The position numbers were made by a program, and so were the translations under genes. The notes below the pieces were generated by a model, which saw nothing but the letters and a program-made list of their open reading frames with translations, did not search any database and was not told the origin of the DNA. Positions 49 to 19,489 of a stretch of 21,880 nucleotides of DNA are shown piece by piece (within the stretch, counting starts at the first letter, position 1; each line of letters starts with the position of its first letter). Origin of the DNA: Candidatus Mcinerneyibacteriota bacterium (lineage in GTDB: Bacteria; Macinerneyibacteriota; Macinerneyibacteria; Macinerneyibacteriales; DSCS01); assembly GCA_016937175.1 (NCBI GenBank), contig JAFGWL010000003.1, positions 1-21,880 of the forward strand, given 5' to 3'.

Positions 49-75
49 TTGACAATAGATAGGGATATCTATACT
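49..75 (+). promoter_or_regulatory. Sigma-70-type promoter of the yceD-rpmF-fab operon
   Basis: A perfect TTGACA (49-54) and a near-perfect TATACT (70-75) are separated by 15 nt, shorter than the usual 16-18. The nine bases after the -10 box are all pyrimidines, and the first purine is the A of the yceD ATG at 85. Initiation at that A would give a leaderless transcript. The TTG at 49 is therefore promoter sequence and not a start codon. Confidence 0.7.
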
Positions 76-84
76 CTTTTCCCT

Positions 85-5666: not shown

Positions 5667-6616
5667 AACACTACATTATTCCCTTTTTTCTCACTTTTCA
5701 GGGGTGTCCTCATCGATGTATCTATTGTGACCAGCAGGCGATCGCCGGAGAGCCTACCGGTGAAGTGGCCTCTGTCATGGAGACTTTTCTGAAATATCAC
5801 GGTTCAGAAGAGTATTCAGCGGAAATAGCCTTTTTTGGAGGGACTTTTTCGCTTCTTCCTTTAAAAAGACAGCAGGAATTGCTGGAGAGCGTTGTCCCCT
5901 ATATCGAAAAGGGTGAAGTCCGGGGGATCCGTTTCTCCACACGCCCCGACGCCCTGGATGAAAAGAGGCTTATCTGGTATAAGGAACGCTTTGTCACTCA
6001 TATTGAGCTGGGAGTCCAGTCTTTTCAGAAAAAGTTTCTTGACCTCCTCCGGCGCGGATATACCCCTCAAACGGCCCGTTCTGCTGTGGAAATGGTAAAA
6101 AAAAGTGGGATCGGGGTGGGAATCCAGCTGATGCTCGGCTTTCCCGGCCAGGACAGAGAGATGTTTTTCAAGGATATCGATGAGATCAGAAGGCTCAAGC
6201 CGGAAGATTGCCGGCTTTATCCTCTTTCGGTGATCAGCGGGACTCCTCTGGAAAAAGAGTATCAGAACGGGGGGATGAACTTTATATCTCTTGAGACAGC
6301 GGTAGATTGGGTCGCAGATGCCGTGGAAGTGATCGAGAAAGAGGGGATCGGGATCCGGAGGATCGGATTGCCTCATTCACCCGAGTTAGAGGAAAAGATC
6401 ATCGCGGGGCTTTATCACCCTTCCTTTGCCGATAAAGTCCGCTTCGAGTTACTGCGTCGCTCTTTTGATAAAGCCGATATCCGGTCAGGCCAGACGCTTT
6501 CAGTCCATCCCGCGGACTTGCAGTATACTTACCGGATCGCCCGGATAAAAAAGAAACAGGTCAATGTTGTTCCCGACTCTTCTCTGAGACGAAGCACGAT
6601 CATCATTCAACAGTAA
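5663..6616 (+). CDS. Radical SAM protein, Elp3-like family, partner of rnc
   Basis: The N-terminus carries the radical SAM cluster motif CPHRCIYC (Cys15, Cys19, Cys22), which binds a 4Fe-4S cluster and SAM. FGGTFS (the GGE-like SAM-binding stretch) follows, with an FSTRPD stretch and a LMLGFPGQ motif typical of the Elp3/coproporphyrinogen-oxidase-like branch. A longer frame opens at 5555 inside rnc, but the first 36 codons have no family resemblance. The TTG at 5663 overlaps the rnc stop as TTTGA and is preceded by GGGAGAGGGA (5651-5660), giving 317 residues. From memory, related proteins lie beside rnc in clostridia. The substrate is unknown; tRNA or other RNA modification is only an inference. 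Confidence 0.85.
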   Translation: MKHYIIPFFLTFQGCPHRCIYCDQQAIAGEPTGEVASVMETFLKYHGSEEYSAEIAFFGGTFSLLPLKRQQELLESVVPYIEKGEVRGIRFSTRPDALDEKRLIWYKERFVTHIELGVQSFQKKFLDLLRRGYTPQTARSAVEMVKKSGIGVGIQLMLGFPGQDREMFFKDIDEIRRLKPEDCRLYPLSVISGTPLEKEYQNGGMNFISLETAVDWVADAVEVIEKEGIGIRRIGLPHSPELEEKIIAGLYHPSFADKVRFELLRRSFDKADIRSGQTLSVHPADLQYTYRIARIKKKQVNVVPDSSLRRSTIIIQQ

Positions 6617-7046
6617 ACTCGAGAGTATCCAGGTCGAAGGTCACCTTGATCGTCCCGTGAAAAGGGATAGAAGAGGTGCCTGTAAAGACAATAGTTCCTG
6701 AAAGATTGAGAATATCGCCGGTAAAGTAGTATTGTGCTGAAACGTCGATATCCCATCGGTCTTTGATCTCCACAGGGAGTGTCATCCCAAGCCGCGATTC
6801 CAGGTCAGCTTTGGTGCAGGAGAGCTGCATGGAGGGGCCGGTATTGATCTCCCCCGTCCCCATATAGCCGTATCGGGTCAGATTACTTTTGAGCTGGAGG
6901 ACGATCCTGTCGATATTCAATTTAGCTTCAGACATCCGGGCTTCTTTGACATGGGAAAAATAGACAGGAGTCCCTACCCCGACTAAGATGCCGAGAATGA
7001 CCATGGTTATGACCAGTTCAAGAAGCGTGAATCCTTTTTTTCCCAT
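6603..7046 (-). CDS. Type IV pilin-like protein (pseudopilin)
   Basis: This 147-residue protein has a prepilin leader MGKKG cut before Phe6 (G|FTLLE), the essential Glu at mature position 5 and a hydrophobic helix continuing for about 20 residues. Prepilin peptidase would process it in the inner membrane, and it could join a type IV pilus or a type II secretion pseudopilus. The globular part shows one Cys and no C-terminal disulfide loop. The ATG at 7046 lies exactly 6 nt after a TATAAT box and has no Shine-Dalgarno, so translation looks leaderless; a TTG two codons upstream directly follows the -10 box and cannot be in the transcript. No other pilus gene is nearby. Its 3' end overlaps the radical SAM gene by 14 nt. 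Confidence 0.88.
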   Translation of the reverse strand: MGKKGFTLLELVITMVILGILVGVGTPVYFSHVKEARMSEAKLNIDRIVLQLKSNLTRYGYMGTGEINTGPSMQLSCTKADLESRLGMTLPVEIKDRWDIDVSAQYYFTGDILNLSGTIVFTGTSSIPFHGTIKVTFDLDTLEFTVE

Positions 7047-7052
7047 ATTCAA

Positions 7053-7080
7053 ATTATATCGGTTGTTGAGATAAAATCAA
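7053..7080 (-). promoter_or_regulatory. Promoter of the pilin-like gene, leaderless arrangement
   Basis: Read on the minus strand, TTGATT (7080-7075) is followed after 16 nt by a perfect TATAAT (7058-7053). Six bases then lead to the ATG at 7046, which places the transcription start at the A of the start codon. It is back to back with the promoter of the nitroreductase in the 107-nt gap. Confidence 0.75.
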
Positions 7081-7709: not shown

Positions 7710-8054
7710 ATGAAAAAGGTTTTGATCCTGATACTGGCCTTGCTCATGGGGGTTCTTACAATGAATGCACATCCCGCCCAGGTAGTCCAGATGACCTATA
7801 ATGCCGAGATGAAAGTCCTTTCGCTGGATGTCATCCATCCGACGAATGACCCTGCCGGGCATTTTATCCAGCAGGTGACTCTCACATTGAACGGGGAGGA
7901 GTGGGTCATCCAGAGATTCCGGGCCCAGACAGACAAACAGGGACTTCGGCTGAACTACTATATCCCGGGATTAAAAAAGGGGGATGAGATCAAAGCAACG
8001 GTGAAGTGCAATAAATTCGGAAACAAAGGCGGACGTCTCATCATCGGTCAATGA
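7710..8054 (+). CDS. Secreted superoxide-reductase-like (desulfoferrodoxin-fold) protein
   Basis: A signal peptide (MKK plus a hydrophobic run to about residue 18) ends at NA|HPA, which would leave His21 as the mature N-terminus. The roughly 94-residue mature part reads as an Ig-like beta sandwich. Motifs resemble the iron centre of superoxide reductase: His43 in IHP, His51 in GHFI (compare HP...HY/FI) and Cys100 in CNKFG (compare CNxHG), with Phe103 where the last iron-binding His is expected. AAGGAG at 7697-7702 precedes the ATG. It may bind iron or another metal in the periplasm, but this is inference; activity is uncertain because one ligand is missing. Its end overlaps the convergent hydrolase by 14 nt. 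Confidence 0.6.
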   Translation: MKKVLILILALLMGVLTMNAHPAQVVQMTYNAEMKVLSLDVIHPTNDPAGHFIQQVTLTLNGEEWVIQRFRAQTDKQGLRLNYYIPGLKKGDEIKATVKCNKFGNKGGRLIIGQ

Positions 8055-9069
8055 TGTGATGAAGGCGCAGAAAATCAAGGAGAGCGGCCTTAAAAGCCCC
8101 GGGATTTTCCAGCATGGGAAAGAAAGCGGAGCGGGGGATAGTATCGCAGGCAGAACCTTTTTCCTTTTTGTCGCCTACACTCGTAAACCAGGGGTCGTGT
8201 TCTCCCTGCAGAAGAAGAACGGGAATAGAGCTCTTTTCCCCCGGGATAGTCTCATCTGAATTATAATAAGAAGAGGAATAGAGGTAGGGAAGCATATCTT
8301 TTGCCGAATGGAGAGGGAGGAAAGCTCCTGTCTTGAGCAGTTTCCGGACGGTTTTCTGCGTCTTTTTATCCACAGGCTGATAAAAATAGAGTTCCGGCAC
8401 ACTCCCCAGAAGTGAAAAAAGAATCTCCGCTTCTTCGGGAGAAAGCCTTTTGGCGCCGCGAAGGCTTAAAAGCCGGGTCTTTTGCTCCAGAGCTTTCAAC
8501 CCGCTGACACTGTTTTCGTCAACGGACCTTTCAAATGTCTCGTAAAGCTTCTCCGTGAGAAAAGAAAGTTCCCCGGGATAATCAAGGCGCGGGCTGACCC
8601 CCGCAAAGAAGAGGACCCTCCGGGGGGCTTTCCGAAGGAGCCGGGCTCCTACAAAGGCTCCGAAATCGTGTCCCAGGATCCCGAACTTCTCTATTCCCAG
8701 AGTGGTCATGAGAGAGAGGATCAGATCCGCCTGTTCACCAGGTGAGATCCCCTCGACGGGCCGCCGGTCATAGATAAGGGGCCGGCCGGAAGGGAGGGAA
8801 CGGCCCGAATAGTAATAGTCGATGAAGACAAGCCTTAAAACCTTGTCGAATAGAGGCGGCAGGCTCTCTTCCAGGTAGTGGGATGAGGAGCCGGGGCCGA
8901 AGGGGAGGCATACCATGGCGGGTTTTCTTTCATCATCGCCGTACACGGCAATATGGACTGTTTTCCCGTCGATATTCATCACTCCCTGATACAAGGGGCC
9001 TCCCTGAAGGAGCTCCGGAGAGATAAGAAGAAAAAGAAAGAGCGGCAACCATCTGTATACATTCTTCAT
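8041..9069 (-). CDS. Secreted alpha/beta hydrolase with a degraded active site
   Basis: The 342-residue protein has a signal peptide (first ~23 residues, LPLFLFLLI core) and an alpha/beta hydrolase fold. The nucleophile elbow is GHDFGA with Asp135, as in epoxide hydrolases and haloalkane dehalogenases, and an acid candidate is Asp292 in LLQGEHDPW. The C-terminal stretch expected to read GHFPMLENP reads AFFPMLENP, so the catalytic His is replaced by Phe316. The oxyanion region HGxPG reads FGPG. It may be a non-catalytic relative or use another mechanism. The ATG lies 6 nt after TATACT with no Shine-Dalgarno, so it is probably leaderless. Confidence 0.82.
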   Translation of the reverse strand: MKNVYRWLPLFLFLLISPELLQGGPLYQGVMNIDGKTVHIAVYGDDERKPAMVCLPFGPGSSSHYLEESLPPLFDKVLRLVFIDYYYSGRSLPSGRPLIYDRRPVEGISPGEQADLILSLMTTLGIEKFGILGHDFGAFVGARLLRKAPRRVLFFAGVSPRLDYPGELSFLTEKLYETFERSVDENSVSGLKALEQKTRLLSLRGAKRLSPEEAEILFSLLGSVPELYFYQPVDKKTQKTVRKLLKTGAFLPLHSAKDMLPYLYSSSYYNSDETIPGEKSSIPVLLLQGEHDPWFTSVGDKKEKGSACDTIPRSAFFPMLENPGAFKAALLDFLRLHHIIDR

Positions 9070-9075
9070 AAGACA

Positions 9076-9081
9076 AGTATA
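9076..9081 (-). promoter_or_regulatory. -10 element of the hydrolase gene, leaderless arrangement
   Basis: TATACT on the minus strand (9081-9076) is followed by exactly six bases and the ATG at 9069, matching the spacing at the pilin-like and TPR genes. The -35 region is weak (TTTATT at a 16-nt spacer). Confidence 0.6.
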
Positions 9082-9146
9082 GGGGAGATGATGAAAAAAT
9101 AAAGGGGAAAGGGTGATCAGGACGGGAAATGCCGGAGGCCTTTCTC

Positions 9147-18490: not shown

Positions 18491-18519
18491 GTCCCGGACT
18501 GACATGAAACCTCTTGTTT
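18479..18519. repeat. 9-bp inverted repeat spanning the glycan operon end
   Basis: AAACAAGAG (18479-18487) pairs perfectly with CTCTTGTTT (18511-18519), with a 23-nt loop that contains a smaller AGTC-CCG-GACT stem. The left arm runs up to the flippase stop codon, and the right arm includes the -35 box TTGTTT of the TPR gene and is followed by a short T-rich stretch. It may terminate the glycan transcript, act as an operator for the next promoter, or both. Confidence 0.45.
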
Positions 18520-18541
18520 CTTTTGTGCCCTTCCTTATACT
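18514..18541 (+). promoter_or_regulatory. Promoter of the TPR gene, leaderless arrangement
   Basis: TTGTTT (18514-18519) and TATACT (18536-18541) are 16 nt apart. Exactly six bases separate the -10 box from the ATG at 18548, putting the predicted start at that A. No Shine-Dalgarno is present. Confidence 0.7.
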
Positions 18542-18547
18542 GTATCT

Positions 18548-19489
18548 ATGACAAGAGTCATCACCTATTATCCTCTGGAAGAAGTCAATTCTCTTGTGAA
18601 GGGGCTTTTTAAAGATCCGGATGTCAGTTTCCGTATCAAAAGATCCCTTCCGGAAAGGAAGGAAGTTTCCCGGCCAAACGGGATTATTGTACTTACCGGG
18701 GAGGACCCTGATATTATATGGGAAGCTTTGAGAAGGATAAAGGCATTTGACCTCATTTCTCCCCTGGTTCTTGTTACAGAACGGTTGTCACGGATCACAG
18801 CGGATAGCCGGCTTTACCCTCTTAATGATATCATCGATTCCCGGGGCCCCTCTTCGGGTATCAGGGAACGGATTATGTCAGCCTTCAGGGAGATCCCCCT
18901 CATGTACCTTCGCTACTATCAATGGGCGAATATCCTGCGCTTGTCGGGCAAGAGAGAAGAAGCTACACGGATGTATGAAGCAGCCATGAGCCTCAATCCT
19001 TCGTTTCTTCCCCCCGCTATCGACCTCTGCTGGCTCTCATACCGGGAAAAGGATTACAAAAGAGCCGAAGCGGTCATCAGGAGGGTCCCGGGACATGAAC
19101 ATATCCCGGAATTCCTGCAGCTGAAAGGGAAGATCGCCTTTTTAAAAGGGGAGTTGAACAGGGCGCGCAAATATTATAAAAAGGCCCTCTCTCTGGCCCC
19201 CTTCTCCTTAAAAATGATCTTGGAGTACGGGAGGATCCTGGCCAGGAGCAGGGCTTACGGCGAGATCGTGCGGATGATCCTCGGAAAGGTTCCTGAATTC
19301 CTGGAGATGAGGGAAAAGATGAGAAGAGCTGTGAGACGGGCTGTCGCAGAAGGGAATAACGGGGATTCCTACACAGCCTCGCGGATGGCTCTAAGGTATT
19401 TTCCGGGGGACAGGGAATTTCTGGAGGTCTACAGGAAATCATCCCGGGCTCTGGGAATTGAGGAAGGGAAAGAGGAGGCAGAGAAATGA
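18548..19489 (+). CDS. TPR protein with a receiver-like N-terminal domain
   Basis: The 313-residue protein has no signal peptide. Residues 1-115 read as alternating strands and helices like a response-regulator receiver (GIIVLTGED, then SPLVLVTERL, then NDIIDSRGPSSG before a final helix), but the acidic pocket and phospho-Asp are not there. From about 120 to 225 there are tetratricopeptide repeats, with clear units near 125-155 (AxMYEAAMSLNP) and 190-222 (ARKYYKKALSLAP). Such proteins usually act as cytoplasmic adaptors. The ATG is leaderless, six bases after TATACT. Its stop overlaps the next gene (ATGA), and an NtrC-type regulator follows, so a role in that pathway is plausible but inferred. 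Confidence 0.75.
   Translation: MTRVITYYPLEEVNSLVKGLFKDPDVSFRIKRSLPERKEVSRPNGIIVLTGEDPDIIWEALRRIKAFDLISPLVLVTERLSRITADSRLYPLNDIIDSRGPSSGIRERIMSAFREIPLMYLRYYQWANILRLSGKREEATRMYEAAMSLNPSFLPPAIDLCWLSYREKDYKRAEAVIRRVPGHEHIPEFLQLKGKIAFLKGELNRARKYYKKALSLAPFSLKMILEYGRILARSRAYGEIVRMILGKVPEFLEMREKMRRAVRRAVAEGNNGDSYTASRMALRYFPGDREFLEVYRKSSRALGIEEGKEEAEK

Follow-up and report, generated by a model that had tools for sequence, protein, structure and literature searches.

Three genes in one stretch of DNA start exactly six nucleotides behind a TATA(A/C)T hexamer, which raises the question of whether their mRNAs begin on the start codon itself and carry no 5′ leader. The stretch of 21,880 nt (the window) is an entire contig (C26) of a 1.88-Mb genome assembled in 71 contigs (G000), whose RpoB was at most 50% identical to any match listed, these being a mixture of KSB1, Deltaproteobacteria and Nitrospirota. 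The collection searched contained one genus mate (G001, the sister genome) and one order mate (G002), and the remaining neighbours were of the same domain and nothing closer. The sequences were analysed as stretches covering 1.33 Mb of G000, 0.80 Mb of G001 and 0.18 Mb of G002. Genes were called by a simple codon-usage caller that chose the start from coding score and codon only and was blind to upstream motifs. A gene was considered operon-start-like when its upstream neighbour was divergent or more than 25 nt distant.

Promoter boxes and genes of the window

The shared TATA(A/C)T-6-ATG arrangement that had been reported for the type IV pilin-like, alpha/beta hydrolase and TPR genes was found at all three sites by direct reading (Table 1). 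The −35 TTG at 16–18 nt was present upstream of the TPR (18548) and pilin-like (7046) genes and was weak for the hydrolase gene (9069), where the corresponding hexamer is TTTATT at 9103–9098 on the minus strand. The starts of the pilin-like and hydrolase genes are fixed because both carry N-terminal signal sequences: the former encodes the prepilin signal MGKKG/FTLLELV, which anchors its start codon, and the N-terminus of the latter looks like a signal peptide. The pilin-like gene has kept its start and promoter in the sister genome at a protein identity of 69%. The TPR gene is the first gene of a TPR/ZnuA-like/sigma-54 response regulator operon. Its box was not conserved in G001, where the ortholog is not leaderless and lies 44 nt behind another gene, and the first 70 residues of the protein matched G001 weakly; no relative of it was found among the candidate stretches searched. 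We are highly confident in predicting leaderless mRNAs for the pilin-like and hydrolase genes, and regard the same prediction as likely for the TPR gene.

Table 1. Promoter elements and genes of the window (positions are those of the whole stretch)
Feature	Position	Strand	Basis and remarks
TATAAT TTGAAT ATG, pilin-like gene	7058-7044	−	Direct reading
TATACT TGTCTT ATG, hydrolase gene	9081-9067	−	Direct reading
TATACT GTATCT ATG, TPR gene	18536-18550	+	Direct reading
−10 TATACT of TPR-gene promoter	18536-18541	+	Direct reading; spacing-6 class enriched genome-wide
−35-like TTGTTT, spacer 16 nt, TPR gene	18514-18519	+	Direct reading; absent from the list of the stricter consensus scan
TPR-repeat protein gene, predicted leaderless	18548-19489	+	ORF, Pfam
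−10 TATAAT of pilin-like gene	7053-7058	−	Direct reading; kept at spacing 6 in G001
−35 TTGATT, spacer 16 nt, pilin-like gene	7075-7080	−	Direct reading; TTGATTTTATCTCAAC conserved in G001
Type IV pilin-like gene, predicted leaderless	6603-7046	−	Pfam N_methyl
−10 TATACT of hydrolase gene	9076-9081	−	Direct reading; kept at spacing 6 in G001
Alpha/beta hydrolase gene, predicted leaderless	8041-9069	−	Pfam; promoter box and CCTTTATTTTTT conserved in G001
yceD promoter: TTGACA (49-54), 17 nt, TACTCT (72-77), 7 nt, ATG	49-77	+	Direct reading

A fourth, near-leaderless candidate in the window is yceD, the first gene of the contig, with its ATG at 85 on the plus strand and no Shine-Dalgarno (SD) site. 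An alternative −10 for this gene, TATACT at 70–75, would have a spacer of 15 nt and lie 9 nt from the ATG.

Spacing between the −10 hexamer and the start codon across the genome

As TANNNT is a loose pattern and the intergenic DNA is rich in AT, the three occurrences noticed in the one window might be a matter of chance. The pattern is indeed common: the 538 operon starts gave a background of about 7 at each spacing, and the raw genome count of TATAMT-N6-ATG was modestly above that of the N10 version (43 versus 30). The genome-wide search that the earlier note had called for nevertheless revealed a sharp TANNNT spike 6 nt before gene starts in both G000 and G001. In G000, the pattern stood at exactly this spacing in 35 of the 538 operon-start-like genes (mean of nearby spacings 7.0; Poisson p 4e-14) and in 8 of 591 operon-internal genes (mean 3.7), the two groups differing with a Fisher p of 6e-6. 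The sister genome gave 22 of 298 operon starts (mean 4.6, p 4e-9) against 3 of 377 internal genes (mean 2.2). G002 had two cases at spacing 6 among 55 operon starts, a gene number too small for a test. A broad second mode of TANNNT at about 18–30 nt before the start corresponds to ordinary leadered promoters. The spike at spacing 6 was restricted to ATG starts, and GTG and TTG starts were without a comparable one.

The −35 element was independent of the selection, as the genes had been picked by TANNNT-6-start alone. Of the 35 spacing-6 genes of G000, 23 had a −35 TTG at a distance of 16 or 17 nt upstream, as compared with 17 of the 503 remaining operon starts (p 3e-21); the corresponding figures for G001 were 18 of 22 and 22 of 276. 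The T at −34 was nearly universal (32/35 in G000 and 20/22 in G001) because the 16- and 17-nt spacers have that column in common. The excess stands at one spacing, occurs only in first genes that start with ATG, is accompanied by a correctly placed −35 and, as described below, is conserved in orthologs. This leaves chance an extremely improbable account of the three sites; for the class as a whole, it was refuted by the spacing, −35 and ortholog evidence.

The spacing was also counted more strictly, by considering all plausible in-frame ATGs and requiring a −35 TTG with a spacer of 16 or 17 nt. At spacing 6, this count gave 33 cases in G000 and 23 in G001, and 0–4 at each of most other spacings between 0 and 14, the exceptions being spacing 7 (11 in G000 and 6 in G001) and spacing 9 (6 and 5). 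Transcription might start a few bases off the A of the ATG, or from several promoters per gene, leaving some mRNAs with very short or longer leaders. The shoulder of 11 at spacing 7, some promoters at 8–9 nt, and yceD, which fits a spacing of either 7 or 9 nt, agree with such a possibility. The sharpness of the peak at 6 and the identical spacing in orthologs point to the A as +1 for most genes, and we consider starts off the A rather unlikely, though a possibility of some weight.

The predicted leaderless genes were functionally mixed and included hybrid kinases, TetR and ArsR regulators, photolyase, cytidylate kinase, glycosyltransferases and others. An A-rich second codon was considered as a further feature and was dropped, with p 0.0015 in G000 but p 0.50 in G001.

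Conservation of promoters and start codons in the sister genome

Orthologs were defined as reciprocal best hits within the 0.80 Mb of G001 that was examined. TANNNT at exactly 6 nt was kept in the ortholog of 15 of 21 predicted leaderless genes as compared with 6 of 194 others (p 6e-14), and in 17 of the 21 after the G001 start was moved upstream in two pairs. When these 17 pairs were aligned, columns −34, −12, −11 and −7 were identical in all of them, of which −12, −11 and −7 are identical by selection of the genes and −34 is not, and much of the spacer and discriminator had diverged. Furthermore, an identical spacing was kept in 14 of 20 pairs with the promoter 5–7 nt from the start, and in 19 of 71 pairs with the promoter at 15 nt or more (p 0.001).

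The promoters could be real and the ATG wrong, in which case the transcript would run through a short leader to an SD-led start further downstream. This is the pattern of two hits among the 35 in G000 (L069:14102 and L096:7493), where an SD-led ATG lies 5–6 codons in and the G001 orthologs start there; they look like false starts, of which there are at least two in total. An SD-preceded in-frame start within 30 codons was, however, found in only 4 of the 35 genes as against 86 of 454 other operon starts, and conservation of the N-termini, with synonymous changes, began at the first Met. In 12 pairs aligning from the Met, codon positions 1, 2 and 3 were 68, 84 and 47% identical from codon 2 onward; third positions thus diverge most from codon 2 on, and the ATG is therefore the translated start. 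The signal sequences of the pilin-like and hydrolase proteins likewise begin at the predicted ATG. A misplaced start is accordingly very unlikely as an explanation of these sites.

The cytidylate kinase gene (L098, G000:C51, 806-1453) is predicted to be leaderless in both G000 and G001, and a gene for a six-S1-domain protein (C51:2982-4472) lies about 1.5 kb downstream of it. In both species, a gene whose 104-aa product had no match in Pfam (L022:6684-6998 on the minus strand; G001:C1:16207) carries TANNNT at 6 nt but lacks a −35. On the upstream side of its box, about 25 nt were unusually conserved (CGCTCAYGCCCTGAGT), and this sequence may be another element.

Predicted leaderless initiation, Shine-Dalgarno sites and known systems

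The leaderless reading put forward in the earlier note was supported by the spacing-6 spike at operon starts, its limitation to ATG, the matching −35 and the conservation in G001. It is very probable, to judge from the DNA, that these are ordinary sigma-70-type promoters whose transcripts begin with the A of the ATG and so are leaderless. The geometry of the promoters is enriched across the genome, restricted to operon starts and to ATG, and conserved in the sister species; from this we infer where transcription actually begins and how the ribosome enters, as follows. A sigma-70-type RNA polymerase would recognise the −10 hexamer at −12 to −7 together with the −35 TTG 16–17 nt upstream of the −10. 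Six discriminator bases would separate the −10 from +1, the A of the ATG, so that the mRNA would have no 5′ leader and begin at the start codon. The ribosome would engage the 5′-terminal AUG directly, with no SD pairing. Leaderless genes would form a minority and be first genes only, other operon starts would have leaders, many of them with SD sites, and internal genes would start by SD or overlap. Published work, done mostly in E. coli and reviewed in PMC4611024, indicates that leaderless mRNAs require an AUG at the 5′ terminus and rely on IF2, that IF3 antagonises them, and that they may load 70S ribosomes; the ATG-only spike fits this AUG requirement. The six-S1-domain protein encoded in G000 is probably ribosomal protein S1, in which case the leaderless mode does not stem from a loss of S1.

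The lack of an SD site at the three window sites, to which the earlier note had drawn attention, is true and yet is not independent evidence, as a TANNNT at −12 to −7 leaves almost no room for one. SD was absent in 32 of the 35 spacing-6 genes, and when pyrimidine-type control patterns were placed there instead, 0 of 56 had one; the SD is thus lacking because the motif occupies its position. The comparison of 3/35 with SD against 248/503 was dropped as evidence for that reason. The 16S rRNA, which would carry the anti-Shine-Dalgarno of the lineage, had no match in the assemblies of G000, G001 and G002.

A switch of initiation mode by operon position had also been proposed, and it held in so far as the leaderless class is confined to operon starts. 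An SD 4-mer was, however, present at 47% of operon starts, and of the 227 operon-start genes in which a TTG-16/17-TANNNT promoter could be recognised no more than 60 nt from the start only 41 had it at 4–9 nt, the distribution being bimodal with 6 at 10–14 nt and 177 at 15–59 nt. The switch had been called striking, but it is rather to be expected because leaderless initiation is closed to the internal genes of a polycistronic mRNA, the restriction to first genes being a requirement of leaderless initiation (Zheng et al, 2011; PMC3160421).

Leaderless genes are already known and widespread in bacteria. Genes with TANNNT about 12 bp upstream were described in 207 of 953 bacterial genomes (Zheng et al, 2011; PMC3160421), and a later survey, as cited in PMC9581028, predicted leaderless transcription in 21.6% of bacterial species. 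The TA-led genes of Zheng et al and the leaderless bacterial class of GeneMarkS-2 (as cited in PMC9581028) agree with those of G000 in having TANNNT about 12 bp upstream, counted from the first T, in being first genes only with SD-led distal genes, and in forming a minority in most lineages. G000 differs in belonging to a deep lineage apparently outside these surveys and in a low share of a few percent of genes. The most familiar examples are Deinococcus and Mycobacterium tuberculosis. The “−10 region adjacent to ORF” of Deinococcus-Thermus (PMC12340547) is likewise a TANNNT about 6–7 bp upstream and is read as leaderless mRNA; it concerns nearly one third of genes in D. radiodurans, whereas in G000 the share is about 5–8% of operon-start genes and a −35 TTG is clear. 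Mycobacterium tuberculosis (PMC3898074) resembles G000 in TANNNT, in transcription starting on the start codon (predicted in G000) and in the coexistence of SD-led genes. It differs in that 22–26% of its genes are leaderless, with no conserved −35 and with GTG leaderless starts too, whereas G000 has the −35 and a spike on ATG only.

What is new is thus the occurrence of predicted leaderless genes in this deep lineage, which would be added to the bacterial lineages that have them. We put at about even the chance that this essentially unstudied lineage has a strictly AUG-only zero-leader class with full −35/−10 promoters and avoidance of leaders of about 4–8 nt, the mode being largely inherited between species and changed in some genes such as the TPR gene (18548). 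Spacing, −35 and ortholog conservation together can establish leaderless starts from DNA alone, and gene finders that score SD alone will misplace some starts in this genome.

Raw pattern counts in 60 genomes were tried as a ranking of genomes and rejected as too noisy without gene starts. The TATAMT-N6-ATG count against the N10 count was 22 versus 2 in G021 and 36 versus 16 in G018, both of which share only the domain with G000, and this suggests abundant leaderless genes in these two genomes.
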